NCBI RefSeq assembly: GCF_000738005.1
Contig: NZ_JHAL01000002.1
Span: 1-64,000, forward strand
Source: Bifidobacterium crudilactis
GTDB lineage: Bacteria; Actinomycetota; Actinomycetes; Actinomycetales; Bifidobacteriaceae
DNA: 64,000 nt
Direction of reading: 5' to 3'
The notes beneath the pieces were generated by a model that did no database searches, was not told the origin of the DNA, and saw nothing but the letters and a program-made list of their open reading frames with translations. Positions 3,331-41,507 of this stretch are shown piece by piece. Position 1 is the first letter of the stretch, and every line of letters starts with the position of its first letter. Both the position numbers and the translations under genes were made by a program.

Positions 3331-3401
3331 GATAACTGCACTAAAAGGACAGCTTTTCCGGTGAATTATTGCCGAATTGCTGTCCTTTTAGTGCAGTTAT
3401 C
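3331..3401 (-). repeat. 71-bp hairpin element, copy 1 (loop inverted)
   Basis: A 23-bp arm beginning GATAACTGCACT (3331-3353) is repeated as a perfect reverse complement at 3379-3401 around a 25-nt loop. The arms are identical in the copies at 7042, 16333 and 20339. Only the loops differ, and in this copy the loop lies in the opposite orientation to the other three. It starts 24 nt after the fimbrial stop codon. Confidence 0.95.
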
Positions 3402-3416
3402 TGGAACTCACGGGTG

Positions 3417-3481
3417 AAACTGTGCAAAGCAGCACACAAAGCCAGCAAATCAGAGTGCTTCGCGTGCTCATATGCACAGTT
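3417..3481 (+). repeat. Inverted repeat with AACTGTGCA arms
   Basis: AAACTGTGCA at 3417-3426 faces TGCACAGTT at 3473-3481. Inside, CAGCACAC and GCGTGCTC give a partial second stem. The same outer 9-mers form the terminator-like hairpin at 36782-36851, so the two may belong to one small repeat family. There is no T-run here. Confidence 0.6.
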
Positions 3482-3819
3482 CTACTCATTCGCAGAAACG
3501 TGTCGCGTGCGCAACTACGGCACCGTATCAGCGATATGCGGGTGAATGTGGTCGCGTGGGTCTGGCGTATTACATGTATCGCCTAGGAGTGTGCGATACT
3601 AGATAGCGGTGGAACTGCAAAGCCACCACTAGCGATGGCGTCGATCCCCTTGCAACAGCCGCAATGAGCGTTTGCAAACGATGGTGTCCGCTTTCGCCTT
3701 AGATGACTTTTTTGTAGCCTGATGATGCAGCGCAGAGATGCGGCCACGGTGAGAGCGTGGTGTGAGAATGTATCGAAGGCCAGGATGACGGTACGTTGCA
3801 GCGTGCCGCAAGGAGCATT

Positions 3820-6819
3820 GTGCCCAAGGAACAGAACAACGGCCTCGGCAACGCTGACGCCAACAATATGAATGCCGATTCAGCAGGCAACGAATCCGTG
3901 AATGAAGCGAATTCGAACGCTGCTGCAGACTCCACGAATTCGGCGGCAACAGGAAGCAAACGACGCAGAACAGGACGACGCGTGGTGCGTGTGGCCGGGG
4001 CTGCAGGAGCCGCCGTGCCCGTTAAGGTCGAAGGTGCGCCGCATCCGAAGGCCGAACACGCGGAGAATTCCGACGCGACGCAGCAAGGCAGCCAGGCCGA
4101 CGGAAACGACCGTCATAGTGAGGGGCAGGCAGAAGCTCATGCGTCAGAGCCGAAGCGTCGTAGGAGCCGTCGAAAGACCTCATCACAGGTAAACGCGGAT
4201 AGCGATGCCGGGCGTAAAACCGATGCTCCATCAGCAGCGTCGGAGAGCAAGGATGATGAGCCCGGTCGTATCGATGCCACGGGCAGAAGCTCATCCAGAC
4301 GAGGAAAAAGCGCACAGAATCCGACATCAGGACGGCAGGCGTCGTCTTCGAAGAGCCGGGCACGCGCCGATATCGTGGAATTTGAAGAGCCCGTCGTCGA
4401 AGATGAAGAGTCCCGTGGCAGGCGTCGTGGCCGTGGCCGCGCCCACGAGCAGCAGACCGAAGACCCGCAGGACCGCAGTCAGCGGGCCGCCAAGGCTGTC
4501 GATGCCATCAAATTCCTGCAAGTCGACACCGCACACTCCGCAGACAAGCAGACCGACCATAAGGCTTCGCACAGCAAGCCGATGATCTCCCCGCTGTTCC
4601 AAGAACCCGTTCTGCCTGCCGCATCCAGCCACCCAGTCGACACTGACCACAGCGACAGCGACGACACTGAGGAAAGCCCTAGCGCTTCACGAAGGGGTAA
4701 CGCCAAACGAGGCAGGAATCACCGGCGTCATGAAACCACGATCGAAATCATCGAACGTGGAGGCAAGAGCATCCACGATTCAGCCGATGCCCGCGACTAC
4801 GACTCGACGGAGAACACCGACGAGGACGACAACAGGGACGAGGAGCATTCCGGGCATTCACGCCGTTCTCGCAGAATGAACGCACAGGAACGTCGTGCCG
4901 CAGCCGAGGTCGGGCAGATTGAGGACGACCTCGAATACGACGAGATACCATACGACCCCATCGATGACGACACCCGTGCGGCCAAACGATCCAGACGTTC
5001 GCGTACACGTTCCTCCGAAGCTGAAGAAAACACCACACGTCATGCTCGGCACTCTGAGTCCGAGCAGGATGAAGAACAAGGCGATGGCAGAAAACACCGC
5101 TCGTACAGCAGAGACACGGATGACGATGACAATGATTCCACCGTCACACGTCGCCGTCGTCGCCGCCGCGGCAGCGTGAAGGCGTCGGAAGAGGAAAGCT
5201 CGGAGCAGAGCGGTTCGAAACGCTCGCGCAAGCAGCAGTACATCGATGAAATCACCAACATCGAAGGGTCCACCCGTCTCGAAGCAAAACGTCAGCGCCG
5301 TCGGGACAACCGTCGCGACCGTTCACGGCAGACGCAGCTCATAGAACAGGATTTCCTAGCACGCCGCGAGAACGTCGACCGGGCCATGGTGGTGCGCGAA
5401 AAGGAACAGCACACCCAGATTTCGGTTGTCGAAGACAACATACTGGTGGAACATTACGTCTCGGACATCCAGGAAGTGGCCACGGTAGGCAACATCTATC
5501 TCGGTCGCGTGCAGAACGTCCTGCCGAGCATGGAAGCCGCCTTCGTGGACATCGGGCAGGCCCGCAACGGCGTGCTGTACGCCGGTGAGGTCAACTGGGA
5601 CAGCGCACGTCTTGACGGACAGCCTCGCCGCATCGAACTGGCGTTCAAATCCGGTGACCCTGTGCTCGTGCAGGTCACCAAAGACCCCATCGGGCATAAG
5701 GGCGCACGCCTGACTTCACAGGTGACGCTCGCAGGCCGCTTCCTCGTGTTGGTCCCCTCGGGAGGCATGACCGGCGTCAGCCGCAAGCTGTCCGAGCATG
5801 AACGTTCACGCCTCAAGGGCATCGTCACCAAGATCGCGCCCAAGGATATGGGTGTCATCATCCGTACGGCTGCCGATCACGCCAGCGAGGAAGCCATCAC
5901 CAAAGACCTCGAAAACCTGGTGAGGCAGTGGGAAAGCGTCGAAAGCAAGCGCGACTCGGCGAAGAACCATAAGAAGCCGAAACTCCTCAAGGGAGAACCG
6001 GATGTGGCCATCCGCGTCGTGCGCGATATTTTCAACGATGACTTCAACGAACTCATCGTCGAAGGCGACAAGGTCTACGAACGAATCAGCGAATATCTCG
6101 ATTCGATGGCTCCCGACTTGCGCGAGAAACTCACCAAGTGGGACCCGGCGGACCATGAGGGAGCAGATGTATTCGACCGTTGGCAGATTGACGGACAGTT
6201 GCGTAAAGGCATGGAACGTCAGGTGTATCTGCCCAGCGGAGGCTCGCTGGTCATCGACCGTACCGAAGCCATGACCACCATCGACGTCAACACAGGACGC
6301 TTCATCGGCAAAGGCAAGTCCCTTGAGGAAACGGTTACGCGCTGCAACCTCGAAGCCTCCGAGGAAATCGCCCGACAGCTCAGGCTCAGAGATATCGGCG
6401 GCATGGTCATGATTGATTACGTGGACATGGTGATGCAGGCCAACCGTGACCTCGTGCTGCGACGCCTGGTCGAATGCCTTGCACGAGACCGGACCAAGCA
6501 TCAGGTCGCCGAAGTGACCTCCCTCGGTTTGGTGCAGATGACACGCAAACGCGTCGGCCAGGGGCTTGTGGAGGCCTTCTCCGAGGAGTGCCCGACCTGC
6601 AAGGGACGTGGCTTCATTCTCCATGACGAGCCGACCATTTCCGCGTCGTCTGACGACCCGTATGCGGTGAAGGGTGGAGACCCCTTCATCAAGTCGACTC
6701 CCAAGCACCATGCGCAGCCCAAGGACAGCGCGGCCCCCAAGGGTTCGTCCCCTGACGTCAAGGCCAAGCTGGCAAAGATTGCTGCTGCGGCTCAGTCGTC
6801 ATCGGAGGATGCCGACTGA
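3820..6819 (+). CDS. rne: Ribonuclease E/G family endoribonuclease
   Basis: RNase E/G cleaves single-stranded RNA in mRNA turnover and rRNA/tRNA processing and scaffolds RNA-decay complexes. The 999-aa protein has an N-terminal half of about 530 residues that is charged, low-complexity and disordered-looking (Arg/Asp/Glu/Ser). The catalytic core follows: an S1-type RNA-binding segment (GNIYLGRVQNVLPSMEAAFVDIG), the metal-binding loops IDVNTG (about residue 820) and MIDYVDM (about 864), and the zinc-link motif CPTCKGRG (about 924). Actinobacterial enzymes typically carry the disordered arm at the N-terminus as well as, or instead of, the C-terminus. GTG 3820 is chosen because AAGGAG at 3810-3815 precedes it; an in-frame TTG at 3796 is less likely. 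The 3' end lies inside the first unit of a 108-bp tandem repeat. Confidence 0.95.
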   Translation: MPKEQNNGLGNADANNMNADSAGNESVNEANSNAAADSTNSAATGSKRRRTGRRVVRVAGAAGAAVPVKVEGAPHPKAEHAENSDATQQGSQADGNDRHSEGQAEAHASEPKRRRSRRKTSSQVNADSDAGRKTDAPSAASESKDDEPGRIDATGRSSSRRGKSAQNPTSGRQASSSKSRARADIVEFEEPVVEDEESRGRRRGRGRAHEQQTEDPQDRSQRAAKAVDAIKFLQVDTAHSADKQTDHKASHSKPMISPLFQEPVLPAASSHPVDTDHSDSDDTEESPSASRRGNAKRGRNHRRHETTIEIIERGGKSIHDSADARDYDSTENTDEDDNRDEEHSGHSRRSRRMNAQERRAAAEVGQIEDDLEYDEIPYDPIDDDTRAAKRSRRSRTRSSEAEENTTRHARHSESEQDEEQGDGRKHRSYSRDTDDDDNDSTVTRRRRRRRGSVKASEEESSEQSGSKRSRKQQYIDEITNIEGSTRLEAKRQRRRDNRRDRSRQTQLIEQDFLARRENVDRAMVVREKEQHTQISVVEDNILVEHYVSDIQEVATVGNIYLGRVQNVLPSMEAAFVDIGQARNGVLYAGEVNWDSARLDGQPRRIELAFKSGDPVLVQVTKDPIGHKGARLTSQVTLAGRFLVLVPSGGMTGVSRKLSEHERSRLKGIVTKIAPKDMGVIIRTAADHASEEAITKDLENLVRQWESVESKRDSAKNHKKPKLLKGEPDVAIRVVRDIFNDDFNELIVEGDKVYERISEYLDSMAPDLREKLTKWDPADHEGADVFDRWQIDGQLRKGMERQVYLPSGGSLVIDRTEAMTTIDVNTGRFIGKGKSLEETVTRCNLEASEEIARQLRLRDIGGMVMIDYVDMVMQANRDLVLRRLVECLARDRTKHQVAEVTSLGLVQMTRKRVGQGLVEAFSEECPTCKGRGFILHDEPTISASSDDPYAVKGGDPFIKSTPKHHAQPKDSAAPKGSSPDVKAKLAKIAAAAQSSSEDAD

Positions 6820-7041
6820 ACCGCAGCCTTCGCGCCCGTGGGGGCGCTCACCACACCTCAGTCAGGCACACCGTGCCTGTCTGTTGACGGTGTGGTGGCT
6901 CAGTCGTCATCGGAGGATGCCGACTGAACCGCAGCCTTCGCGCCCGTGGGGTCGCTCACCACACCTCAGTCAGGCACGCTGTACCTGTCTGTTGACGGTG
7001 TGGCGGCTCAGTCGTCATCGGAGGATGCCGACTGAACCGCA
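6791..7041 (+). repeat. 108-bp tandem repeat containing the rne stop codon
   Basis: The last codons of rne and the following untranslated sequence recur with a period of exactly 108 bp. Units start at 6791, 6899 and 7007, and the third is cut short by hairpin element copy 2. Each full unit holds a nested inverted repeat: CACCACACC against GGTGTGGTG outside, and CAGGCAC against GTGCCTG inside. The second unit has a few substitutions that weaken both stems. Copies 2 and 3 of the coding fragment lie after the stop codon and are not translated. Confidence 0.95.
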
Positions 7042-7189
7042 GATAACTGCACTAAAAGGACAGCAATATGGTAAAAAATTCTCCGGAAAGCTGTCCTTTT
7101 AGTGCAGTTATCCGCGTGAATGCTATCTGTGACCATCGTATTCACGACGAAACCTCCGGCGAAGTACGTCCGCTCGAAACCGTGCCCGG
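6820..7189. other. Gene-free stretch between rne and the DUF3800 gene
   Basis: These 370 bases separate two convergent genes. They contain the downstream part of the 108-bp repeat and hairpin element copy 2, then about 77 bases with no recognisable feature. An apparent open frame runs through the repeats (about 6674-7102), but it only mirrors the rne frame and is not a gene. Confidence 0.7.
7042..7112 (+). repeat. 71-bp hairpin element, copy 2
   Basis: It has the same 23-bp arms as copy 1 (7042-7064 and 7090-7112), with the loop in the common orientation and A-rich. It sits exactly where the third 108-bp unit breaks off, between convergent rne and the DUF3800 gene. No target-site duplication is evident. 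Confidence 0.95.
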
Positions 7190-7867
7190 TCAGCTGCGCA
7201 GTTTCTTCCTGACTGCTTTGAGATAGTTCATTTTGAATGCTCTTGCATTGCCGAAGATTTTGAGGTCCGTGGCGGTCTGTGTGTTGGCAGCGTATTTTAA
7301 GGCAGTCAGTTCCAATGTGCACAACAGGTCGGCCGACTGCTCCAGACGATAATCCCTGACACAAGTCTCGCGGTAGACGATTGCCTCTTTCGACAACGCG
7401 TAACTGATGGAGCTTTTCAACGCGTCGGTGACGACCTGCTGCCCGTTGTCGTAATACACTTTGACGGTTCCGTAGGTTTGGAAACGTTCGAGATGGGAGA
7501 GCAGATAGTCGGCGAGATCACGTTTCAGTTGCGCCTCGAAACGTTGTCTGTTGTCATCGAACTCGCTTTTCTTGTGGGCGAAGGTGACATAGGTGAAGGG
7601 CATGTTCCTCACCAGCGTAAGAAACGCCACCAACAGGCGCTTGCGTTCCCGCATCTGCATGCCCTCGTAGTCACCGTGCCCGTTGAGCAGGGGCCCCGCG
7701 TGAAAGGGAATATCCGGCAGACCCGCGTTGCCAAGGTGAGCTTCATACTTCGCTATATGGGTTCCCAAGTCATCGGATTGGTCATGAAACACCAGAGTGA
7801 TGAGATAATACTCCGAGAGCTTGCCCCATTCGCCTGACTCGTCACACATGATGCTCAGCTCGGACAT
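7190..7867 (-). CDS. DUF3800 domain-containing protein
   Basis: A 225-aa soluble protein beginning MSELSIMCDESGE. The early DESG motif, followed by a conserved hydrophobic strand and later acidic residues (YYDNG about residue 140, EQSADLL about 180), is characteristic of DUF3800, a family thought to have an RNase-H-like fold but without an assigned substrate. Members often sit in variable chromosomal sites and near phage or defence genes; no such partner is seen here. The start at 7867 is preceded on the minus strand by GAGGA at suitable distance; a longer in-frame start at 7954 is less likely. It is convergent with rne and divergent from rplU. Confidence 0.7.
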   Translation of the reverse strand: MSELSIMCDESGEWGKLSEYYLITLVFHDQSDDLGTHIAKYEAHLGNAGLPDIPFHAGPLLNGHGDYEGMQMRERKRLLVAFLTLVRNMPFTYVTFAHKKSEFDDNRQRFEAQLKRDLADYLLSHLERFQTYGTVKVYYDNGQQVVTDALKSSISYALSKEAIVYRETCVRDYRLEQSADLLCTLELTALKYAANTQTATDLKIFGNARAFKMNYLKAVRKKLRS

Positions 7868-8009
7868 GCTGCTTCCTCGCAGACAAAGAGATTGCCGGGG
7901 GAATACCCCCGGCGGCTTGGAGCCTTCCTTCGTTTCCAAGAGAAAGCTATTCAATTGTATGGCATTTCAGCGCTGTACGGAACGGTCCTGGTGTTTCAGG
8001 CGTATGGAC

Positions 8010-8055
8010 TTGACGGAACATGGACTTGACGGAAATCCATGGGAGCGTGTATGTT
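8010..8055 (+). promoter_or_regulatory. Probable rplU-rpmA promoter with duplicated -35
   Basis: A 16-bp unit containing ATGGACTTGACGGAA is tandemly repeated, giving TTGACG at 8010-8015 and 8026-8031. The second is followed after 18 bases by TATGTT (8050-8055), a reasonable -10. No comparable -10 pairs with the first copy. The assignment rests on position and hexamer match only. Confidence 0.5.
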
Positions 8056-8066
8056 GGATAGTCGGT

Positions 8067-8103
8067 GTCTAGCCATGCCTTTCGTCATGTCAGGATGCTA
8101 GAC
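8067..8103 (+). promoter_or_regulatory. Leader hairpin upstream of rplU
   Basis: GTCTAGC (8067-8073) and GCTAGAC (8097-8103) can pair in the untranslated leader about 40 nt before the rplU start. Leaders of L21 operons are often structured for autoregulation in other phyla. Whether this short stem does so is unknown. Confidence 0.4.
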
Positions 8104-8140
8104 CAACAAGCAGCTTTAAGAACACAGGCAAGGTAGGGCT

Positions 8141-8449
8141 ATGTACGCGATTGTGAAGGCCGGTGGCCATCAGGAAAAGGTCGAGGTCGGAGACGTTATC
8201 AGCGTCAATCGTCTTGACAGCAAGAACGGTGAGACCGTCGAATTCCCGGTCGCGCTGGTCGTTGACGGTGCCAAGGTGACGGTTGCCGCGAAGGATCTCG
8301 CCAAGATTTCGGTCAAGGCCGAGGTTGTCGACGACGAGGCCAAAGGCCCCAAGATCCGCATCCAAAAATTCAAGAACAAGACTGGCGTCGCTCGCAAGCA
8401 GGGCCATCGTCAGAAGCTGACGGTCGTCAAGATCACTGCGATCGCCTGA
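8141..8449 (+). CDS. rplU: 50S ribosomal protein L21
   Basis: L21 is a large-subunit protein that binds 23S rRNA with L20. The 102-aa product begins [18 protein letters not shown] and ends with the basic [24 protein letters not shown] segment typical of the family, at the family's usual length. It is followed 27 nt later by rpmA and then obgE, the rplU-rpmA-obg order conserved across most bacteria. An ATG preceded by AAGGTAGG gives a clear ribosome-binding site. Confidence 0.98.
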
Positions 8450-8476
8450 TACAAGACTTTCCGGAAAGGAACAGAC

Positions 8477-8728
8477 ATGGCACATAAGAAGGGAGCGTCC
8501 GCATCACGTAACGGGCGCGATTCAAATGCACAGTACCTCGGTGTGAAGAAGTTCGGCGGCGAGTCTGTCATCGCTGGCAACATCATCGTGCGTCAGCGCG
8601 GCACCAACTTCCATCCTGGTCAGAATGTCGGCATCGGCAAGGACCATACACTGTTCGCTTTGGCTGATGGCAACGTGCAGTTCGGCGTTCGCCGCGACCG
8701 CAAGGTTGTGGATGTCGTTTCCGCCTGA
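8477..8728 (+). CDS. rpmA: 50S ribosomal protein L27
   Basis: L27 sits near the peptidyl-transferase centre and contacts tRNA. The 83-aa protein begins [29 protein letters not shown], the classic actinobacterial N-terminus that needs no proteolytic trimming, unlike the extended Firmicutes form. It has the standard family length. The ribosome site GGAAAGGA lies just upstream. It is co-transcribed with rplU and ends at a strong intrinsic terminator. Confidence 0.98.
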
Positions 8729-8748
8729 ACCACAGTTGTAGCTTTGGC

Positions 8749-8785
8749 AAGCCGCGCCCTCTGAGGACGCGGCTTGTTTGTTTTT
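8749..8785 (+). terminator. Intrinsic terminator after rpmA
   Basis: AAGCCGCG (8749-8756) pairs with CGCGGCTT (8768-8775), followed by GTTTGTTTTT. This is a textbook stem plus U-run 20 nt after the rpmA stop. It should separate the ribosomal pair from obgE. Confidence 0.85.
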
Positions 8786-8925
8786 AACCCAAGATACTTC
8801 GTAATAGGCTCGAGGAGCTTCCCCGAGCCCAGTCTGCCGCGCGCAAGGTGCGGATGGAACATTCAGTGTGTGAAACTGCAGAGATTCCGCTGACCGCAAC
8901 AAATATTTCAGTAAGGTACATAAGT

Positions 8926-10653
8926 ATGAGTGCATTTGTAGACCGGGTTACGGTCCATGTTCGCGGTGGTGACGGCGGTAACGGCGCATCTTCGATCAGA
9001 CGCGAGAAATACAAGCCGCTGGCAGGTCCCGACGGTGGCAACGGTGGTGACGGCGGGTCGGTGATCTTCGTCGCCGACTCGAATGCCACGAGTCTTCTGG
9101 ACTATCGATTCCTGCCGCACCGTTCCGCGGATTCCGGCACGATGGGTCTCGGGGGAGACAAGGACGGCAGCAAAGGCGAGGACGTGCTGCTGCCCGTGCC
9201 GATCGGAACGGTCGTATTCGATGCCGGGGACGTGAAGGACGGCAGGAAAGCCAAGACGGCGAAACCGCTCGCCGACCTGCGTCACCCAGGAGAGCAGTTC
9301 ATCGCGGCTCACGGCGGCAACGGAGGTCTGGGGAACAGGTCTCTGGCCAATCGCACCCGAAGAGCACCCGGCTTCGCCCTGCTCGGTGAACCCGGCGAAG
9401 AACGGGATATTCTGCTTGAACTCAAATCCATCGCCGATGTGGCGTTGGTGGGATTCCCCAGCGCAGGCAAGTCAAGCCTTATCGCCGCGATGAGCTCGGC
9501 GAAGCCGAAGATAGCCGACTATCCCTTCACTACTTTGGTGCCGAACCTTGGCGTCGTCGAAGCAGGAGACCAGCGTTTCACCATAGCGGATGTGCCGGGG
9601 CTGATTCCCGGAGCGTCACAGGGCAAGGGTCTGGGACTCGAGTTCCTCAGGCATATCGAGCGCACCGAGATCATCGCGCATGTCATTGATTGCGCCACTC
9701 TTGAACCGGACCGCGACCCGATAGCCGACTACCACGCCTTGGAGAACGAGCTGTCAGCCTATGCGGATGCCTTGGATCTCCCGCTGGGAGTCATCCCCAT
9801 CGCCGACAGACCGCGCATCGTGGTGTTGAACAAATGCGATGTGCCCGAAGCGAAGGAACTCGCGGAATTCGTTCGTCCGGAATTCGAAGCCATGGGCCTG
9901 CGCGTATTCGAAGTGTCGACCGCATCCCATGAGGGTCTCAAAGAGCTGCGTTTCGCACTCTCCGAGCTTGTCTCCAAGTTGCGTGAGAAGCTCGCCGAGC
10001 AGGAGCGTGACCAGGAGCAGGAGCGTGTGGTCATACGTCCTCTTGAAACGGGTCGTCCACGCCGTAGAAACGACGAGACCGGATTCGCTTCGGAATTCTC
10101 CATCAAGCGCGAACAGGACCGGAACGGCAACCATTGGTTCGTCGTCACCGGCACCAAGCCAGAACGTTGGGTCATGCAAACGAACTTCGATAACGATGAG
10201 GCGGTCGGTTATCTCGGTGACCGACTCGCAAAGCTGGGTGTCGAGGATGCTCTGCGTCGCGCAGGGGCTCATCCCGGGGATGAAGTACATATTGGCCAGG
10301 GCAAGAACTCGGTCGAATTCGATTGGGACCCCACCATCATCGCCGGTGCGGAGATGCTGGACGGTGAGCCGATGGTTTCACGCGGCAAGGACCTGCGCCT
10401 GATGGACCAGGACGGGTACGCCCGCAGACGCAGCAACACCGAGCGCCGAGAGCAATACCACGAAATGATGGACGCCCGCCAGGCGGTCAGGGACGCGATG
10501 ATGGCTGAGCGGAAGGCCGGTCATTGGGCCGATCCCGCAGTCAAGGACGACCCTGAAGGCAAACATTTCGGCATCAAGGGCGCCGCCGGCACTGCGGATT
10601 CCAGCACCACGGATTCCGACCAGCAATCCGCGCAGGGCGACAGCGAAGACTGA
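8926..10653 (+). CDS. obgE: GTPase Obg (CgtA)
   Basis: Obg is an essential GTPase in 50S assembly and stress signalling. The 575-aa protein has the glycine-rich Obg fold at the N-terminus ([25 protein letters not shown]) and a GTPase domain with GFPSAGKSS (P-loop), DYPFTTL (switch I), DVPGL (G3) and NKCD (G4). An OCT domain follows (about residues 385-465), then a charged C-terminal tail of about 60 residues ending in a Ser/Asp/Gln-rich stretch. The ATG at 8926 matches the start of the conserved fold; the frame is open 26 codons upstream, but that part is unlike the family. It follows the terminator of rpmA, so it probably has its own promoter. Confidence 0.97.
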
Positions 10654-10738
10654 TATTGAGAGGCGGTAATGCCTCGACCTTTGTCAGCACAAGCGGCAAT
10701 ACCCGTGTCGGCATCATTCAGGGAAGGGAACGGGTCAT

Positions 10739-11872: not shown

Positions 11873-11932
11873 CCTGTTGCGTGTGCTGAACGGCGCGTCA
11901 CCTTTTCGTATGCAAGCGTTAGAGTGTAAGCC

Positions 11933-13147
11933 ATGAGCATGGCATCATGGCAAACCCTAAGTGACCGCATCAATATCGTCTCCCCAAGCGCAACCCTGGC
12001 TGTCGATTCCAAAGCCAAGGCTATGAAGGCTGCGGGTGTTGACGTCATCGGTTTCGGAGCCGGAGAACCGAATTTTCCCACCCCGCAGAACATCGTGGAC
12101 ACCGCCGCCACTGCCTGCCGTGACCCCAAAAATCACCGCTACACGCCTACGGCCGGATTGCCGGAGCTCCGCGAAGCGATTGCCGCCAAAACCCTGCGCG
12201 ATTCCTCCTATCAGGTGGATGCGAATCAGGTCGTCGTGACCAATGGCGGCAAACAAGCCGTGTATGAGGTCTTTCAGATTCTGCTCGATGAAGGCGATGA
12301 GGTCATCATCCCCGCACCCTTCTGGACCAGTTACCCCGAAGTGGTGAAGCTCGCCGGTGGAAATCCGGTAGAGGTATTCTCCGGCCACGAGCAGGGCTTC
12401 ATCCCTACGGTGGAGCAACTTGAAGCTGCCCGCACTCCCCGAACAAAGGCGATTATTCTCAATTCCCCCTCGAACCCCACTGGCGCGGTATGGGACGAGG
12501 AACTGGTACGTGAGGTCGGGAAGTGGGCGCTCGACAATCATCTTTGGGTGATTTCCGATGAAATCTATGAGCATCTGACCTATGACGGGGTGCGAACCTC
12601 GTATGTGGGCGAATTGCTTCCCGAATTGAGGGACCAGCTGATTGTGCTGAACGGCGTTGCCAAAACCTATGCGATGACGGGTTGGAGGGTCGGCTGGATG
12701 GTCGCTCCTGTTGACGTGGCCAAAGCCGCGTCCAAGTTGCAGGGGCATATGACGTCGAATGTTTCGAATGTTTCCCAACGGGCGGCTCTCTGCGCGGTTG
12801 CCGGTCCCTTGGACGAGGTCGGTCATATGCGAGAGGCGTTCGACGTGAGGCGTAAAGCGATTACGACTGCGTTGAACGCCATCCCCGGCGTGTCCTGTCC
12901 CACGCCGCAGGGGGCGTTCTATGCCTTCCCCAACGTCGAGGCGCTGTTGAACAGGGCTTTGGGGCCCAAAGGGAGCATCGCGGCGAGCTCCGCCGAATTG
13001 GCTGCCCTGCTGCTTGACGAGGCGCATATCGCCGCTGTGCCCGGTGAGGCCTTCGGCGCTCCGGGATATCTGCGTTTTTCCTACGCGCTTGCCGACGCCG
13101 ATTTGGCAGAGGGCATGCGGCGCATGCATGAGTGGGTCACCGCCTGA
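11933..13147 (+). CDS. Pyridoxal-phosphate aminotransferase, class I (aspartate type)
   Basis: A fold-type I aminotransferase of 404 aa, most likely interconverting aspartate and oxaloacetate with glutamate/2-oxoglutarate in the cytosol. Visible landmarks are [12 protein letters not shown] at the N-terminus, [17 protein letters not shown] (cofactor-binding Asn), [12 protein letters not shown], the Schiff-base lysine in [15 protein letters not shown] (about residue 240) and the C-terminal FRFSYA-like Arg segment. The subgroup I-gamma of AspC (thermophile/Bacillus-like) fits better than the E. coli form. An ATG six bases downstream (MASWQ) is an alternative start. It follows proB by 60 nt and may be co-transcribed. 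Confidence 0.9.
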
Positions 13148-13345
13148 CGGGGAGATTGCCGGGCCAGGAGCTTGGAGTGTCTGTTGAGTGTCTGTTGAGC
13201 GTCTGCCGAGTATGAGGCTGAACACTCGTATATGAGGCTGAGTGGACGAATTCACTCAGCCACGCTAGACTGTTCACTTGGCGGTTTTGCCCAGCTTCGT
13301 GAGACCGTTTTCGTGAGATGCGAGTACGATGGGCAAAGTTCTCCT
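13148..13345. other. Intergenic region with short direct repeats before tRNA-Trp
   Basis: Near 13176-13208 an 11-bp unit like GTGTCTGTTGA occurs three times, the third copy diverged. TATGAGGCTGA follows twice (near 13211 and 13231). No gene is seen. The tRNA-Trp promoter should be here but is not clear by eye. Confidence 0.5.
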
Positions 13346-13421
13346 AGGGAAGTGGCGCAATTGGTAGCGCAACGGTCTCCAAAACCGTAGGTTGTGGGTT
13401 CGAGTCCCGCCTTCCCTGCCA
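13346..13421 (+). tRNA. tRNA-Trp (CCA)
   Basis: A 76-nt cloverleaf. The acceptor arm AGGGAAG pairs with CTTCCCT, followed by G and an encoded CCA. The D arm is GGCGCAATTGGTAGCGC-like, the anticodon stem ACGGT/ACCGT carries loop CTCCAAA (anticodon CCA), and the T arm includes GTGGG-TTCGAGT-CCCGC. Its place before secE-nusG is the usual actinobacterial one. Confidence 0.97.
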
Positions 13422-13453
13422 ATGGATTGGCCACCAGCAAGCAAAGGACAGAT

Positions 13454-13684
13454 ATGGCGAAGGCAACTGGGTCCGATGAAAAGTCACTCAAGCCGAACTT
13501 CTTTATGCGCATCGGTCTGTTCATCAAGCAGATAATTGACGAGTTGCGCAAGGTGGTCACCCCGACCCGCAAGGAGCTCCTGCTCTGGTCGGTCGCCGTG
13601 TTCATCTTCGTGGTGCTGCTGATGCTGTTCGTTACGGCCATGGACTTCGGACTTGGCAAACTTGTGCTGTGGCTGTTCGGGTGA
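13454..13684 (+). CDS. secE: Preprotein translocase subunit SecE
   Basis: SecE is the clamp subunit of the SecYEG protein-export channel. The 76-aa product has a hydrophilic N-terminus, the conserved amphipathic FIKQIIDELRKVVTPTRKELL helix and one membrane helix (VFIFVVLLMLFVTAMDFGL), typical of the short single-span SecE. The ATG at 13454 follows AAAGGACAG. It lies 32 nt after tRNA-Trp and 29 nt before nusG, with which it is surely co-transcribed. Confidence 0.95.
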   Translation: MAKATGSDEKSLKPNFFMRIGLFIKQIIDELRKVVTPTRKELLLWSVAVFIFVVLLMLFVTAMDFGLGKLVLWLFG

Positions 13685-13713
13685 TATGCGATTTGTGCAA
13701 AGGGATTTAGATA

Positions 13714-14676
13714 ATGACTGATGATCAGAATGTTGAAGATACTTCGGCTGTGGAAGACGCAGTTGCAGGCGATGCTACGCCAATCGCCGACGAAGAACTC
13801 AACGATGCCGCACAGGTTGAGGCAGGGCTCGATACGCCTGTAGAACCGACGCCGGACCAGAACGCGCTTGGTGAGGTTGAAGGCACCGAGTCGGGTGATT
13901 TGGATGAGGACGTCATTTCGGATGCACAGTCCGAGAGCACTGCAGACAGCGATGTTGCGGATGCCGCCGTCGCCGACGAAACACAACCCGCAACCGATGT
14001 GAAGTCCGATGGCTCTGATGCAGACGCTTCCGACGACGTTGAAGATGATGAGGCTCAGGACGCCGGAGAACTCGCAGTCAAGGCCTTCTCGAAGCAGTTG
14101 CGCACGCTGGAGGGCAAGTGGTACGTTCTCCACACCTATTCAGGCTACGAAAAGCGCGTGAAAGCCAATGTCGAGTCCCGCGTGTCCTCATTCGGTCTTG
14201 AAGACAAGATCTTCCAGGTTGAGATTCCTATGGAAGAGGTCGAGAAGCACACCGACAAAGGCAAGAAGATTGTCACACGCGTGCGGATTCCCGGATACGT
14301 CCTCATTCGTATGTGGCCTGACGAGGATGCTCGTCGTATCGTTCGTGAGACCGAAGCCGTCACCGGATTCGTGGGCCCATCCCAAGAGCCGGCACCGCTC
14401 AGCCGCAAAGAAGTCGTGAACATGATGGCTCCTATGATTGCCTCCGAGGCTCTCAAAGAAGCCGGAGACAAGCCTGCTGCGGCCAAGAAGCGTCAGGTCG
14501 AGGTTTCCTTCGCCATCGGCGATCAGGTCACCGTTATCGATGGCCCATTCGCCACCATGCCTGCCGTCGTCTCCGACGTCGAGGCATCCACTCAGAAGAT
14601 CACCGTCCTCGTATCCATCTTCGGACGCGATACGCCGGTGGAGCTTAGCTTCGAGCAGGTCGAAAAACTCTCTTAA
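13714..14676 (+). CDS. nusG: Transcription termination/antitermination protein NusG
   Basis: NusG binds RNA polymerase and couples it to Rho or ribosomes. The 320-aa protein starts with about 125 residues that are almost entirely acidic and small (Asp, Glu, Ala, Ser, Thr). The NGN domain follows ([23 protein letters not shown] ... [31 protein letters not shown]), then a C-terminal KOW domain ([24 protein letters not shown] ... [17 protein letters not shown]). NusG in E. coli is near 180 aa; acidic N-terminal extensions are known in actinobacteria, and this is a long one. The stop is followed by the duplicated rplK promoter region. Confidence 0.95.
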
Positions 14677-15031
14677 ACACCTTCCGCGGTGCGTTGTCTG
14701 CCGCATGCCGCAGTCGATGTACCTTTGTACACCTTCCTTTGGCTTGCGTTGACACCGCACGCGCGGAAGGCGTTTAAGTGTGCATCTTCGGCGGTGGGTT
14801 GTCTGCCGCTTGTCGCAGTTGATGTACCTTTGTACATCCTCCTTTCGCAAGCGTTGACACAGCATGCGCATAAGGTGTGTAAGTGTGCGGCACTGGGTAT
14901 GTTGTCCGGTGCCTTTGGCACAATAAGAAAGCTTGTGACCAGCGGATGTTTCGCGGTTACAGAAGAACTATCAGTTGCGGGAGGAAGCAGCGCTTCCGTT
15001 CGCACCGCTTCACAGAAAGAAGAACCAGAAT
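14677..15031. other. nusG-rplK intergenic region
   Basis: These 355 bases hold two tandem copies of a 105-bp promoter-bearing unit (14681-14890). A short GTGCC-TTT-GGCAC hairpin lies near 14909, followed by the rplK leader. No open frame here resembles a gene. Confidence 0.7.
14681..14890 (+). promoter_or_regulatory. Tandemly duplicated 105-bp promoter region of rplK-rplA
   Basis: Unit A (14681-14785) and unit B (14786-14890) align over their length with scattered substitutions at an exact 105-bp offset. Each contains GATGTACCTTTGTACA and a perfect -35 TTGACA (14749-14754 and 14854-14859). An 18-bp spacer leads to TTTAAG (14773-14778) or TGTAAG (14878-14883) as -10. Retention of TTGACA in both copies suggests that both promoters work. 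The GTAC-containing dyad just upstream may be a protein site. Confidence 0.7.
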
Positions 15032-15463
15032 ATGGCTCCTAAGAAGAAAGTCTCAGCGCTGATCAAGCTCGAGATTCAGGCAGGCAAGGCCAATCCGGCC
15101 CCGCCACTGGGTCCTGCTTTGGGTTCGCATGGCGTAAACATCATGGACTTCTGCAAGGCATACAACGATGCCACGAAGGACAAGATGGGCCAGGTCGTGC
15201 CTGTTGAGATCACCGTTTTCGAAGATCGCAGCTTCACCTTCATCCTGAAGACCCCTCCGGCAGCGGATTTGCTTCGCAAGGCTGCAGGTGTTTCCAAGGG
15301 CGCTGGCAATCCTTTGACCACCAAGGTCGGATCCGTCACCAAGGCGCAGGTCAGGGAGATCGCAGAGATCAAGATGCCTGATTTGTCTGCACGCGACGTT
15401 GAAGCCGGAATGAAGATCATCGAGGGCTCAGCCCGCTCGATGGGAATCACCGTAACCGACTGA
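15032..15463 (+). CDS. rplK: 50S ribosomal protein L11
   Basis: L11 forms the GTPase-associated centre with 23S rRNA and is needed for RelA-type stringent signalling. The 143-aa protein begins [45 protein letters not shown], with the proline-rich hinge and the RNA-binding C-terminal domain ([40 protein letters not shown]). The ATG at 15032 is preceded by AGAAAGAAGAA. An open frame extends upstream to 14975 but is unrelated to the family. It is co-transcribed with rplA. Confidence 0.97.
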
Positions 15464-15529
15464 ATTTATTCGTAATGAGCGGAAGGGCAAACGCTTGCCC
15501 GCACCGCGACTGCTGAATAGGAGAAGCAG

Positions 15530-16222
15530 ATGGCAAAGCGTTCCAAGAAATATCGCGAGGCGGCCGAGAAGGTCGATCGCAACAACCTGTACACAGCGAA
15601 TGAGGCAATCGCACTGCTCAAGGGTCTGCCGAAGCGTGGCTTCGACGAGACCGTAGAGGCCGTGTACCGCCTTAATGTCGATCCTCGCAAGGCCGACCAG
15701 CTGGTACGTGGTACCGTCAACCTTCCTCACGGAACCGGCAAAACCGCCCGCGTGGTGGTCTTCGCTCGTGGTCCTCAGGCGACCGCAGCTCTCGAAGCAG
15801 GCGCCGACGAGGTCGGAGATGACGATCTGATCGCCAAGGTGGCCGACGGCTACACCGATTTCGATGCCGTGGTGGCAACACCCGACATGATGGGCAAGGT
15901 CGGTCGTCTGGGCCGTGTGCTCGGACCCCGTGGTCTGATGCCGAACCCGAAGACCGGAACCGTCACGATGGATGTCGCGAAGGCCGTAACCGAAATCAAG
16001 GGTGGAAAGATCGAGTTCCGCGTGGACAAGCACGGCAACTTGAGCTTCCTCATCGGCAAGCTCTCCTTCGAGGAGAGCGCTCTGGACGAGAACTTCAAGG
16101 CCGTTGCCGATGAAGTCAAGCGTCTGAAGCCCAGCACGGTGAAGGGCCGCTACATCACCAAGGCGACCATCACCTCGACGATGGGACCGGGAGTTCCTCT
16201 CGATCCTTCGATTCTCGGCTAA
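15530..16222 (+). CDS. rplA: 50S ribosomal protein L1
   Basis: L1 forms the mobile stalk at the ribosomal E site and often represses its own operon. The 230-aa protein shows the family signature [14 protein letters not shown] (about residues 140-155), [14 protein letters not shown] and the C-terminal [23 protein letters not shown] gives a good ribosome site. It lies 66 nt after rplK. A long perfect hairpin follows the stop codon. Confidence 0.97.
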
Positions 16223-16242
16223 TACCGAAACGCTGCAAATGC

Positions 16243-16274
16243 GAGGGCCCGGACGGTTTACCGTCCGGGCCCTC
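16243..16274 (+). terminator. 14-bp hairpin after rplA
   Basis: GAGGGCCCGGACGG and CCGTCCGGGCCCTC form a perfect 14-bp stem with a TTTA loop, 20 nt after the rplA stop. There is no U-run, so it may act as an RNA 3'-end stabiliser or a Rho-assisted terminator. Confidence 0.7.
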
Positions 16275-16332
16275 CTGCGTTCCCGGCAGTCTGGACCCTT
16301 GTACTAACTGTGCGCAACACCACGTCGAAATA

Positions 16333-16403
16333 GATAACTGCACTAAAAGGACAGCAATTGGGCAATAATTTCTCGGGAAAGCTGTCCTTTTAGTGCAGTT
16401 ATC
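16333..16403 (+). repeat. 71-bp hairpin element, copy 3
   Basis: It has identical 23-bp arms at 16333-16355 and 16381-16403. The loop resembles the reverse complement of copy 1's loop. It lies between convergent rplA and the PucR-type regulator gene. Confidence 0.95.
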
Positions 16404-16437
16404 GTATTAGGAGGGCTCTTTGCGAGTGCATCGTCGC

Positions 16438-18000
16438 TCAGCTCCGGGAATCCTCGATGAGCCCGATTTTCACTGCGGTGAGCAGCACATAGGCTTCCCG
16501 TGGATTCATCGGGTCCCAACCGGTGATTTCGACAGAGCGCTTCAACCGGTACCGCACCGTATTGGGATGGACGTTGAGTTCCCGTGCGGTGATTTCCAAC
16601 GAGCTCCCTGACAGCAGGAAGGTGCTCAGGGTTTTCAGCAGGGGATTGCTCGCATCTTCGCCACGGAGGCTCGCGTAGACGGAAGTGTAGAGTTCCTGTC
16701 TCGCGATAGCGTCCCCGAACAACGCACGTTCGGGAAGGACGTCGTCGGCGCGCAGAGGCCGAGGTATACCCGTGGACTCATTCAGCCCTGTCATCGCCGG
16801 AGCGGTCTGGTAGGTCATCAAGGCGGCACGGATGCTCTCGGCTGCGCCCGAGACCTGATGACGCAAGGGGCCCAGGCACAACGGTCCCTCGTCGAAGTAT
16901 CTCATCAGGGGTTCGAGGAATTCCTCGGCGGTGCCCTTGTCCCGCGGATCGACCAGCACTACAAGAAGGCCGTCATGGTTCGACAGCAGGCATTCTCCAC
17001 CTTGCGCACGGATGGTTCCACGTATGCGACGCTGGACCAGACCGGATTCCAGCTCTCTGCCGTCCGCGAGCTTTCCTACGACCGCGAAGCAACGATAATC
17101 ATTCGTCCAGCCGAGCATGCCCATGCGCGAGGTGACATGATGGTCGGTGACGTTGTCGATGAGGTCCTCGATGGTGAGAGTCTCGATGCGAGTGTCCCAA
17201 TCGCCGCGTGCCTCGGCGGAGGTGGCATACACGGATGCCGCGGAGAAGGCCACTTCGCGGGCGTAGTAGAGCATGCCGTTGCGTATTTCCTGCTCATCCT
17301 CGGGTTCGCTGAAGCCGGATATATTGCGCTCCAGAATATCGACTATGAGACGGGTGACTTCAAGAGCCTGCTTCAGACTAATCGCTTTGGTGAATTCCAA
17401 AGGGGCGACGAAGAAGATATGGTCCGTCGACGGGCGCGGCCCGGTGGAAGAATCGGTGCTTTTCCTGAATTCCTTCATCCAAGCCAGGAAATCGGATACA
17501 GCCGTTTCGATGATGAGGTTCAGCAGTTCCTTGTCCTGTGTGCTCAGATTGCTGTGCCAGGCTAGGTCGCGATCGAGATGCAGGATGGCCTTGTCGACGG
17601 CCTTCTGGACACCTTCAGGAAGCTCGGGAGAACTGTCATGCTGAGTTTTGAGACTCATGCGGTCGGCGACTTCCTGTGTGTCGCTCAAAGCCACAACATG
17701 GTCCAGCTGTGATTCGACGGTCTCCTGATTCTTGTCCTCGTCCGGTTGCGAAGCGGTATTGCGGCGTTTTCGCCGTCTTGCCGAAGTTGATTGCTCTTTG
17801 CCGGAGGTGCCGCCGCCTTCGCCATCGGACTTATGGTTGCCGGTGTCGCGGTGTTTGGCGCGTTCTTCATGCGCATCTGCCGAATTTTCTCCGGATCGAC
17901 GCAGCTCGGGGTTGAACAGGGCGACCGCATCATGGGCTACTTTCGCCAGGGTCCCGGCGTTGGACCGTTCTTTCGGCTTGGATGATTTGCTACGGCTCAT
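16438..18000 (-). CDS. PucR-family helix-turn-helix transcriptional regulator
   Basis: A 520-aa regulator. The first 150 residues are charged and low-complexity. A central region (about 200-420) resembles the GGDEF-like PucR/CdaR middle domain. The C-terminus (about residues 450-515) is the PucR-type HTH: LLKTLSTFLLSGSSLEITARELNVHPNTVRYRLKRSVEITGWDP. The overall shape resembles FasR of Streptomyces, which controls fatty-acid synthase genes, and the fas block lies about 9 kb away; regulation of fas by this protein is inference. Its ATG overlaps the stop of the upstream membrane-protein gene (ATGA at 17997-18000), implying translational coupling. Mycobacterial FasR is a different (TetR) protein. 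Confidence 0.75.
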   Translation of the reverse strand: MSRSKSSKPKERSNAGTLAKVAHDAVALFNPELRRSGENSADAHEERAKHRDTGNHKSDGEGGGTSGKEQSTSARRRKRRNTASQPDEDKNQETVESQLDHVVALSDTQEVADRMSLKTQHDSSPELPEGVQKAVDKAILHLDRDLAWHSNLSTQDKELLNLIIETAVSDFLAWMKEFRKSTDSSTGPRPSTDHIFFVAPLEFTKAISLKQALEVTRLIVDILERNISGFSEPEDEQEIRNGMLYYAREVAFSAASVYATSAEARGDWDTRIETLTIEDLIDNVTDHHVTSRMGMLGWTNDYRCFAVVGKLADGRELESGLVQRRIRGTIRAQGGECLLSNHDGLLVVLVDPRDKGTAEEFLEPLMRYFDEGPLCLGPLRHQVSGAAESIRAALMTYQTAPAMTGLNESTGIPRPLRADDVLPERALFGDAIARQELYTSVYASLRGEDASNPLLKTLSTFLLSGSSLEITARELNVHPNTVRYRLKRSVEITGWDPMNPREAYVLLTAVKIGLIEDSRS

Positions 18001-20258
18001 GATGCCAGCTTATCGTCGTCGGGCACGTCACGGTCGCTGAGTTCTCGAGATCGGCATTCCGGACGGTCGCATTCCGGGCTGTGGATGTCGCGGCTGCGAT
18101 TGTTTCCACATTGCTGTTCTCCACATTGCTGTTCTCCACATTGCTGTTCTCCACATTGCTTTTCTCCACATTGCTGTTCTCCACAGTGGCTTTCCTGCCA
18201 GAAGGCGATGGCGATGAACACGAAGGAGAATGCTATCGGCAGCATATGCCTCTCGAAGTTGTTCGCAGGGGCCACAACCATAACCCCCATCAGCAGCAGG
18301 AGTGGCAGCTGGTAGGCAAGGGAGCGCCATCGTCTCAGAAGCAGTTCGGAGCCGAGCATGACCAGAGTGAGAACCACCCAGAAATTGCCGTGCGTGAACC
18401 AGCCCCAGAAGGGCGTGTTTCCCCAGGCGGTGGTGTGTTCCGCGACGCTGTTTCGCCAATCGTGCGACCATCCTTTAATCCAGACCGTCGAATCCTGCAC
18501 ATAGGTGTTGTTCACGTAGTAGTTCATCGCCACATATGGTGGATCGGTCACATCGAAATACCCATAGGATTTGGCGAGGAAGGCATCAAGGTACAGCACG
18601 GGATTGCGCAAACCGATTTCCAGCCAAGCCTTGTTGAAGGCCTTCATATCGTGGGCGGTCACCGTGCGCCACTTGTACGTGGTGACCTTGCCCATGGTCC
18701 CTGAGGATTTCACGCGGTCGGCATCGTTGGGGAAGTACTCCTGTCCCATGGCTTGGAGGTCGAGTATCGGTTCGAGCGCCTTGCGGGCATCCTCGGGAAT
18801 GCCTTGCGGATTGCGCTGAGCGACGCGCGCTATCTGCTGCAATTGCACGCCTTTGCTCTCGATGGGGTCCCCGGTGATGATGGTTCCGGTGCCCACCAGG
18901 GTGTTGATCGTCACTTGAAACACCACGAGCGGCACGGCAAGGGAGACGATATAAAACCTCCAACGTTTTCTATCCGCAATCAGGAACACCAGCAACTGGA
19001 TGGCGACGATGTACAGCGCGTACTTCACGGAGATGAGCATGACCACCGTGGATACCGCCATCGCCAGAGTCAGACGTCCGGGAATGCGGTAGGTCGGCGT
19101 TCTGCGGCCCTCTCCGGAGTCATGTGCAGCCCGGCGTCGTTCATCCTTGGTGTCCTCCATGCGGTCAGACCTCATACGCAGCAGTTGGTACCAGATACCG
19201 AGCCACCACACGAAGGCGAAGGCGAACAGCGGCGATTTGGTGATCGAAATCGTGCTGAACACCACAAGCGGGCAACACAGCAGAAAGACCAGAATCAGGA
19301 TTCGCGGCAGCGCTCCCGCTTGCGCTTTCATGCTGTTGCCCTGGTGCCGGTATGGCTTGCCGAAGGTGAGTATCCGGTGTGCCGTGACCGAAAGGCAGAA
19401 AGCTGCGAAGAGATACTGCGTTCCTGCAAGGACTACCAGACCGAGGTCGTCGGAACCGCTGAGCGCACGGCAAACGGCCACGATGCCGCCGTAGACCATG
19501 GTGAGCACGATATTGTGCTGATTGGTGAGATACGTCGCCTGTTCAGGCCAGAGATAGTGAGCCGTGGGGTAGATGTCCATCTGCGTGAAGCCCTGCTTGT
19601 AGGGAAGCACGATGCCATGCAGATTCGCCCACCACAGGTTGAATTCGTTGACTTGTGCGCGCACATCCGCTCCGAAGGCGACCAGTAGGGTCACATAGGC
19701 CCAGAGCCAGCCGACGCAGAGGATGATGGCGATTTTCCACCACCGGTCTGTGCATCGGATGATGAGACGACTGGCATTCTGTCCGAAGCTGTGGAGCCGT
19801 GGATGATCGTGCGCAACATTCCTCATGCGTACTTCGAGGGCCTGAATACGAAGACGAAGTCCTGAGCTCGTTCGGCGCTCGCTCGGCGCTGCAGCGTTCC
19901 GGGGCCCTCGATGCGTCTCGTTTCCGTTGTGCTCTCGTTCACGCCGCCTGTGCTCGGCACGGCGTGCCCATAGGTATAGGACGACCATTCCCGCGAAGCA
20001 CACCGCGAAGGTGCAGATGAAGAGCAGCAGGTTATGCCAGGAGAAGTCGAGAATTGAAGCGTTGGCGCGATAGATGGGGCCGATGGCCGTGCACAGCGCA
20101 ATCCATGCGCAAGCCAGTACGCAGATTCCCCAACGGAGCGTTCCCGTGAAGGAAAGCGACCTCGAATGGAGTCTGTTGAGATGGTCCTGTTCGGTCGCCG
20201 CTTTCGTGACTGCTGTGACCTCGGCGTTGCCGGATTGCTGTCGTGCTGTCTTGATCAT
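17997..20258 (-). CDS. Large polytopic membrane protein (DUF6020-like)
   Basis: A predicted membrane protein of about 753 aa with many hydrophobic spans (for example WGICVLACAWIALCTAIG, LLLFICTFAVCFAGMVVLYLW and ILILVFLLCCPLVVFSTISI). Long soluble loops carry AHYLWPEQATYLTNQHN and NYYVNNTYVQDSTVWIKGWSHDW. The layout resembles DUF6020/glycosyltransferase-like membrane proteins of bifidobacteria; no enzymatic activity can be assigned. The C-terminal tail carries pentapeptide repeats with CGEQQ, encoded by a 15-bp tandem repeat. ATG 20258 is preferred; GTG 20294 is possible. It is coupled to the PucR regulator by a four-base overlap. Confidence 0.65.
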   Translation of the reverse strand: MIKTARQQSGNAEVTAVTKAATEQDHLNRLHSRSLSFTGTLRWGICVLACAWIALCTAIGPIYRANASILDFSWHNLLLFICTFAVCFAGMVVLYLWARRAEHRRREREHNGNETHRGPRNAAAPSERRTSSGLRLRIQALEVRMRNVAHDHPRLHSFGQNASRLIIRCTDRWWKIAIILCVGWLWAYVTLLVAFGADVRAQVNEFNLWWANLHGIVLPYKQGFTQMDIYPTAHYLWPEQATYLTNQHNIVLTMVYGGIVAVCRALSGSDDLGLVVLAGTQYLFAAFCLSVTAHRILTFGKPYRHQGNSMKAQAGALPRILILVFLLCCPLVVFSTISITKSPLFAFAFVWWLGIWYQLLRMRSDRMEDTKDERRRAAHDSGEGRRTPTYRIPGRLTLAMAVSTVVMLISVKYALYIVAIQLLVFLIADRKRWRFYIVSLAVPLVVFQVTINTLVGTGTIITGDPIESKGVQLQQIARVAQRNPQGIPEDARKALEPILDLQAMGQEYFPNDADRVKSSGTMGKVTTYKWRTVTAHDMKAFNKAWLEIGLRNPVLYLDAFLAKSYGYFDVTDPPYVAMNYYVNNTYVQDSTVWIKGWSHDWRNSVAEHTTAWGNTPFWGWFTHGNFWVVLTLVMLGSELLLRRWRSLAYQLPLLLLMGVMVVAPANNFERHMLPIAFSFVFIAIAFWQESHCGEQQCGEKQCGEQQCGEQQCGEQQCGNNRSRDIHSPECDRPECRSRELSDRDVPDDDKLAS
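18106..18180. repeat. Coding 15-bp tandem repeat (5 units)
   Basis: Five consecutive 15-bp units with plus-strand sequence CCACATTGCTGTTCT occur at 18106-18180; one unit has G to T at position 11. A degenerate sixth unit starts at 18181. On the minus strand they encode CGEQQ pentapeptides in the cytoplasmic-looking tail of the membrane protein. As 15 is a multiple of three, copy-number change would lengthen or shorten the tail without a frameshift. Confidence 0.95.
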
Positions 20259-20338
20259 CGCATCCGATTCTACTGCCTGCAGCAAAGGGTTCACAGGGTC
20301 ACCGGCTGCCCGGCGCTTAGCCTGGCGGATTGCGAGAT

Positions 20339-20409
20339 GATAACTGCACTAAAAGGACAGCTTTGGGGTAGGAATTTCCCGAAAAAGCTGTCCTTTTAGT
20401 GCAGTTATC
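20339..20409 (+). repeat. 71-bp hairpin element, copy 4
   Basis: It has identical 23-bp arms (20339-20361 and 20387-20409) and a divergent loop with GGGGTAGG and TTTCCCGAAAAA. It lies between the 3' end of ecfT and the 5' end of the large membrane-protein gene, the only copy located upstream of a gene on its own strand. Confidence 0.95.
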
Positions 20410-20451
20410 GTATTCGGTGGCCCGTGCACGCCAAATGCGCAGTGCTATGAG

Positions 20452-41383: not shown

Positions 41384-41507
41384 GCAGATGGCTGCGATAG
41401 CGGTGGAGGTGATTGCGTGCAGGAATGCGGAGCAGCTCCGCTGGTGCCGCAGTTATCGCAGCTATCGCAGGTGTCTCAGCCATCGCAGATGTCTCTGTGA
41501 AGCGGGC

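Follow-up and report, generated by a model that had tools for sequence, protein, structure and literature searches.

Why should hairpins scattered along one bacterial contig have identical stems and dissimilar loops? The question arises from positions 1-64,000 of contig NZ_JHAL01000002.1 of Bifidobacterium crudilactis (GCF_000738005.1), the stretch of 64,000 nucleotides (nt) that we analysed and refer to as the window. An earlier note on this DNA had reported four hairpin elements in it, and we confirmed that all four are real and far above chance. They lie, with no strand assigned, at 3331-3401 (copy 1; arms 3331-3353 and 3379-3401, loop 3354-3378), 7042-7112 (copy 2; arms 7042-7064 and 7090-7112, loop 7065-7089), 16333-16403 (copy 3; arms 16333-16355 and 16381-16403, loop 16356-16380) and 20339-20409 (copy 4; arms 20339-20361 and 20387-20409, loop 20362-20386). 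As had been claimed, each measures 71 bp, the eight 23-nt arms are either identical to one another or exactly complementary, and the loops of 25 nt differ. Relative to those of copies 2 and 3, the loop of copy 1 is inverted. The two strands of copy 2, folded as single-stranded DNA, reach -25.3 and -24.4 kcal/mol (z = -11.7 and -10.3), and none of 200 shuffled sequences was equally stable. Below, "the hairpin family" denotes these 71-nt elements, and copies in the B. crudilactis genome are called own copies.

The four copies are members of a far larger set. With up to three mismatches allowed, the arm occurs 119 times in forward and 118 times in reverse orientation in the 2.36-Mb B. crudilactis genome, and a reversed-letter control gave no match; some 119 hairpins, with the four of the window among them, are counted in this genome. 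The earlier note had raised the possibility of spread, and the wider arm search, with further copies in this genome and in one relative, bears out a spreading family. We used two collections of own copies. For gene context, 97 copies were collected with their flanks through the whole arm (up to six mismatches) from stretches chosen from earlier arm searches. A rule based on the outer nine bases, the foot, retrieved 106 copies, one of them decayed; the copy at 598126, which is among the 97, failed the foot rule. When the first part of contig 2 (0-600 kb) is compared with the remainder (600-1717 kb), the first 600 kb holds 32 of the 49 exact plus-strand arms among the matches listed.

The distribution is narrow. 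Arms with at most two mismatches were found in two of 27 genomes of the genus, B. crudilactis and a sister genome, G024. The foot pattern occurs 106 times in the former, 30 times in the latter and not at all in the other 25 genus genomes, and across the whole taxonomic family it is present in two of 189 genomes and absent from 187. A near relative, G023, has no copies. Viral contigs held no exact arm match, plasmids gave no match, and a degenerate hairpin pattern had no hit in a general collection of genome contigs, which may omit near relatives. The G024 copies were gathered in two ways: exact feet across the whole genome gave 30, of which 25 were listed, and a looser rule applied to the stretches fetched gave 29. 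The G024 copies have the feet of own copies, and 27 of these 29 are 71 nt long. Their inner stems differ from those of B. crudilactis (for example GTGGAGC, GTGGGGA, GTGCAGA and AAGGCAGC), and the opposite arm is usually altered to match. Two G024 hairpins 4.2 kb apart (C1:105002 and 109237) are identical over all 71 nt; the other G024 copies listed are diverse.

Each element consists of a near-invariant 9-bp foot (GATAACTGC/GCAGTTATC), a covarying 14-bp stem and a free loop of 24-25 nt. The length of the loop is far less free than its letters: among the 106 own copies it is 25 nt in 91, 24 nt in 14 and 23 nt in one, and of 85 loops that measure 25 nt, some pairs are identical and others differ at as many as 18 positions. 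On either strand the inner stem is flanked by AAAAG/CTTTT, most copies have GGACAGC/GCTGTCC followed by TTTT, and in B. crudilactis as in G024 the majority of copies have CTTTT past the inner stem. A single 23-nt arm folds no better than its shuffles (z = 0.11 and 0.20), so there is no palindromic core within the arm. Own loops fold slightly better than shuffled loops (-2.5 versus -1.1 kcal/mol); pairing between loop columns is not generally in excess, and a few column pairs are somewhat above expectation.

The two arms of a copy change together. We assessed covariation in 118 elements of 71 nt, comprising 91 own copies (one decayed) and 27 from G024, after dropping elements of other lengths (15 own, two G024). 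Across this set 97.4% of the stem cells are paired, stem pairs 7-9 are invariant, and 161 stem cells carry two-sided changes, compared with at most 33 in slid controls. Arm pairing is 0.980 in own copies and 0.953 in G024, versus maxima of 0.958 and 0.894 when the arms were re-dealt among copies of the same genome. The arms match perfectly in 64 of 105 own copies, and 26 of the 105 share a departure from the consensus between both arms. Copies with identical loops provide the closest comparisons: 407093 differs from 96463 at position 10, and from 1105418 at position 14, by a change that is alike in both arms. Asymmetric arm changes are also many and recur at a few positions, and homogenisation is therefore incomplete. 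The two-sided changes fit the proposal in the earlier note that gene conversion, or selection on the stem itself, keeps the arms alike.

Paralogous loci allowed us to compare hairpins whose surroundings are themselves related. Seven copies lie 26 nt past paralogous surface-protein genes, with flanks 79-93% identical over 380 nt. Copy 1 of the window is an eighth such locus with a more distant paralogue: it starts 24 nt past the stop codon of a gene for a SpaA-domain surface protein (265-3306). In two of the seven loci the loop has the opposite orientation with respect to the gene. The loops at 1251729 and 351212, whose flanks are 93% identical, differ at 18 positions as they stand and at one position once inverted. 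Inversion through the arms, which the earlier note had suggested from the loop of copy 1, is thus seen in place. Over the 21 pairs among the seven loci, the flanks diverge by a mean of 12.6%, the final 26 nt ahead of the hairpin by 14.5%, the loops (in either reading) by 7.2% and the arms by 1.7%. With arm divergence so far below that of flanks and loops, the identity of the arms reflects more than youth. The idea of recent spread therefore holds in part: the spreading family is real, but recent spread alone fails to explain the identical arms. Among the eight paralogous loci, homology beyond the hairpin was seen in one pair only.

We think it moderately probable that these elements are a lineage-limited interspersed palindromic repeat, similar to the REPINs of Pseudomonas, with arms homogenised and loops flipped by template switching, and tolerated at the 3′ ends of genes. 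On this reading, two Bifidobacterium species form the lineage in which the repeat would have multiplied, above all in B. crudilactis, and copies would persist mainly just 3′ of stop codons and in convergent gaps. Switching of the DNA polymerase between the arms as templates would keep the two arms of a copy alike, and the same process would sometimes flip the loop. At 3′ ends, copies would be tolerated; they may also be of use there, either terminating transcription in both directions or stabilising the 3′ end. An older, tail-bearing form may have been moved by an ISL3-type transposase.

The gene context of the copies shows a position bias. With gene borders from a simple codon-usage caller made for this analysis, the 97 own copies fall into 40 convergent, 51 tandem and four divergent gaps, with one copy within a gene call and one unclassified. 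The 134 hairpin-free gaps of the same stretches comprise 14 convergent, 99 tandem and 21 divergent ones, so that convergent gaps are enriched in hairpins (Fisher p = 4e-8) and divergent gaps depleted (p = 0.009). The median distance from hairpin to stop codon is 35 nt (n = 131). Five distances equal -5: judged by coordinates, the stop codon in these cases comes from the GATAA of the hairpin itself. These positions fit the earlier suggestion of a terminator or 3′-end function, and position and sequence together predict that the hairpins perhaps act as two-way terminators or 3′ stabilisers at gene ends.

Comparison with G024 reveals both empty and shared sites, a shared site being the same gap between orthologous genes. 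At 16333 (copy 3 of the window), 109217, 118630, 223198 and 332720, the G024 gap is without a hairpin and 51-143 nt shorter, and for copy 3 the orthologous gap of G023 also has no such hairpin. In 400 kb of G024, eight of 13 hairpins share their gap with an own copy (chance P = 0.0007, a post hoc value; the eight include G024 695473, whose counterpart lies beyond the start of the own contig), and many sites are therefore old or repeatedly used. In shared gaps the own copies carry their genome's stem type or a near variant, except for a decayed member at 41387-41457 (no strand assigned), which keeps 20 of 23 stem pairs and shares its gap with G024 hairpin 736599; the G024 copies carry the stem type of G024 or an older one. 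The loops are clearly homologous at one shared gap (99777/831644, p = 0.001) and weakly homologous, when inverted, at another (344005/1059509, p = 0.01). Shared sites may have been inherited and then converted, or the same 3′ ends may have been used repeatedly. At two places on own contig 2 (201827-206122 and 154109-155822), hairpins with near-identical loops bracket genes that G024 lacks there, and G024 has one hairpin.

A one-sided tail of about 35 nt stands beside 28 of the 106 own copies. The tail adjoining copy 4 (20410-20444, plus strand) is related to the consensus GTATTGGGTCCTTACACGCCAAAATGCGAAGAGCC, which was drawn by eye. The loop side facing the tail is AAA in 14 copies, AAT in seven and not orientable in seven. 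The genome has a single ISL3-family element (contig 3, about locus 1425-2753), whose two 25-nt ends differ at one position. Compared with the terminal inverted repeats of this element, in their inverted orientation, the outer part of the tail agrees at 17 and 18 of 25 bases, and none of 1000 shuffled tails matched them as well. The ISL3-like outer end of the tail points away from the hairpin. An inward tail (at most seven mismatches) lies beside 22 copies, and a second tail facing it (at most nine mismatches) was found at one of these 22; two-ended elements were therefore not seen. The hairpin arm was not found in the ISL3 locus (best comparison, nine mismatches in 23), and a link to ISL3 fails for the arm and stands for the tail, whose two best matches in the locus fall precisely on the two ends of the element. 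An older form that bore the tail may therefore owe its movement to an enzyme of ISL3 type, and hairpins might later have replaced one another beside old tails. Tail similarity and loop similarity are uncorrelated among tail-bearing copies (rho = -0.06, p = 0.29). In nine pairs with loops at most one difference apart, the tails are 43-77% alike (mean 62%), and in the other bins 54-57%, figures that have no random baseline. We rejected the tail as an independent repeat: a search of 384 kb gave eight matches beside a hairpin and two weak ones apart, with a mean of 2.65 and a maximum of eight for shuffled tails.

Our searches found no mover. In the window, as the earlier note had stated, no transposase is nearby: none of eight neighbouring proteins has a transposase domain, the protein of 7190-7954 being without any Pfam match. 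The Y1 transposase (PF01797) was detected in none of the 27 genus genomes at E 0.001 (the control was positive in five of 14). Inspection by eye of the multi-copy families among 206 hairpin-adjacent proteins, for which no profile scan was made, revealed no transposase. Among 105 own and 29 G024 copies, flush target duplications of 4-9 nt showed no excess. Flush 3-nt duplications number four in own copies, where 1.2 would be expected (p = 0.015), a single marginal value out of many tests; values for target duplications at k = 2-3 are marginal. At the best of 16 offsets, single duplications only were found (own, k = 5, p = 0.025; G024, k = 6, p = 0.045). Insertion into palindromic targets was rejected, the two flanks of a copy being no more alike than shuffled flanks. 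Of the suggestion that the hairpins are non-autonomous mobile elements, what stands is that the family spreads; a clear target duplication or an autonomous partner was not found, though some copies have one-sided ISL3-like ends.

How do other explanations fare against this record? One is a recent burst of an ordinary miniature inverted-repeat transposable element (MITE), in which a DDE transposase (for example of ISL3 type) would act in trans on the arms, or on arm and tail, as transposon ends, and the arms would be identical because the copies are young. It would account for the many copies in one species, the near absence of the foot pattern elsewhere, the hairpin-free orthologous gaps in G024 and G023 and the ISL3-like letters of the tail. 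We regard it as unlikely, with a second ISL3-like end facing the first at one of 22 copies, no excess of flush 4-9-nt duplications and the remaining values marginal or single cases, arms that diverge by 1.7% where their flanks diverge by 12.6%, and a majority of the G024 hairpins in the 400 kb compared occupying gaps shared with own copies. Distinctly unlikely, in our judgement, is a bidirectional terminator that serves the host, in which selection on the RNA hairpin keeps the pairing and copies are kept for terminating both convergent genes. The convergent enrichment, the short stop distances and the CTTTT past the inner stem in both species agree with such a role, as does the gap at 171422, where B. 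crudilactis has a hairpin and G024 an apparent canonical terminator in its place. Termination, however, needs neither the same letters in 100 copies nor an invariant foot, and apparent canonical terminators are also retained in several hairpin gaps (16333, 332720 and 125564). A strand test for RNA-level selection on tandem copies was negative, with nine G-U and 11 A-C mismatches on the transcribed strand, and we dropped selection through a G-U bias.

It is quite improbable, we consider, that the repeat both multiplies and stays uniform with no transposase at all, through template switching at the replication fork between hairpins, which would copy arms, flip loops and replace hairpins across sites, each species converting its sites to its own stem type. 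A further alternative is an attC-like recombination site that moves gene cassettes (gene plus hairpin). Near-identical hairpins (201827/206053 and 154109/155752) do flank genes that are absent at the corresponding spot of G024, which has one hairpin there. A first count of junctions overstated gene absence, because orthologues had been missed, and a count by tblastn removed the excess: hairpins occupy ten of 42 gaps bordering G024-absent genes versus 29 of 168 gaps between shared genes (p = 0.38). The foot letters, moreover, do not match what we take to be the attC core, and we hold this alternative to be very improbable.

The preferred reading of a REPIN-like repeat shaped by template switching has its own difficulties, which we set out together. 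The strand test for RNA-level selection, as given above, was negative. Template switching is not the sole reading of the arms, because selection on pairing also yields two-sided changes, and 41 of 105 own copies have at least one arm-arm mismatch. The flank tree of the paralogous loci has no supported fork, and one flip or two are both possible. In-place descent of shared hairpins was rejected, the loops being without recognisable homology in seven of nine own/G024 pairs. Since the foot served to find the G024 copies, its invariance there is partly built in. For an intrinsic terminator, a loop of 25 nt is long. Finally, no mobilising enzyme was found, the genome-wide searches having covered Y1 (27 genomes) and ISL3 (the B. 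crudilactis genome).

We compared the hairpin family with known systems. REPINs, the RAYT-associated repeats of Pseudomonas, have, in the passages of PMC3116915 that describe them, invariant inverted ends and a spacer in which length and hairpin capacity appear to matter; compensatory changes are common, and the GI doublets have a spacing of 71 bp. The hairpin family resembles them in being extragenic, in its near-invariant inverted ends, in a variable spacer of fixed length, in its compensatory changes and in the figure of 71 bp. It differs in that its arm has no REP palindrome and in that the Y1 transposase (RAYT) is absent from the 27 genus genomes; for these two reasons we did not file it as a REPIN, and the REPIN/RAYT system proper was rejected. 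The GTAG- and CGTC-tagged REPs, as outlined in parts of PMC3733652, have stems of 5-13 bp and loops of 2-20 nt, are often paired, and have spacers that vary in sequence and are similar in length. They are likewise interspersed palindromes with length-keeping spacers; the hairpin family differs from those described there in its 23-bp stem and 25-nt loop and in a consensus arm that, by eye, contains neither GTAG nor CGTC. ISL3-family insertion sequences share up to 18 of 25 bases with the tail, which is one-sided and found at 28 of 106 copies, and their locus lacks the arm.

Within the genus, the nearest lead is a motif of B. animalis lactis AD011, GGGACAG(N)15TGTCCC, given in an excerpt of PMC5217627 as having 21 copies that are intergenic and mostly nearer to the 3′ end of a gene. 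It is an intergenic palindrome with the GGACAG/TGTCC core that is common to the hairpin family; its spacing is shorter and the excerpt reports no long arm. The mobile integrase cassettes of B. longum, in the passages of PMC2430713 that treat them, are mobile elements with inverted repeats and palindromes. They parallel the hairpin family as inverted repeats and palindromes in the same genus, but the printed palindrome and inverted-repeat letters differ by eye from the arm, and we rejected these cassettes as its source. Our literature search otherwise found no such bifidobacterial hairpin family, and a word search of the main text of two repeat surveys (PMC12306157 and PMC2267715) found Bifidobacterium not mentioned. 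For the proposed process, passages of PMC8604942, concerned with single loci in yeast genes, describe template switching between short inverted repeats that homogenises arms and inverts spacers, and PMC8794818 concerns template switching that maintains RNA hairpins. The hairpin family is alike in arm homogenisation and spacer inversion and differs from the yeast loci of those passages in being multi-copy and bacterial.

The finding is larger than first reported, and it is reasonably explained by a REPIN-like repeat whose arms are homogenised and whose loops flip. Here a bacterium provides a natural record, in many copies, of how stems become homogenised and loops inverted; the two sister species have stems that differ between them, yet match within each, at partly shared sites. 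The family lets one test whether compensatory hairpin changes originate in joint template-switch events or in successive selected mutations. It is also a repeat family with the anatomy of REPINs, in a genus whose searched genomes gave no transposase of the REPIN type.

At none of the four window copies did Rfam covariance models, run on window positions 1-24000, give a match with an E-value of 1 or less. Copy 2 separates an RNase E/G gene (3796-6819, plus strand) from a convergent open reading frame of 254 aa (7190-7954, minus strand). This reading frame, whose product has no Pfam match, is not in the orthologous rne-rplU gap of G024, nor, judging by gap length, in that of G023. Directly 3′ of the RNase E/G gene, a 108-bp near-perfect tandem repeat (6787-7042) extends up to copy 2. 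Copy 3 separates rplA (15530-16222, plus strand) from the convergent gene of a PucR-type regulator (16438-18000, minus strand). Copy 4 lies in a tandem gap between a CbiQ-type gene (20452-21048, minus strand) and a DUF6020 gene (17997-20294, minus strand). In the 3′ part of the DUF6020 gene, a 15-bp tandem repeat (18090-18203) gives the protein a repeated GEQQC-like tail.

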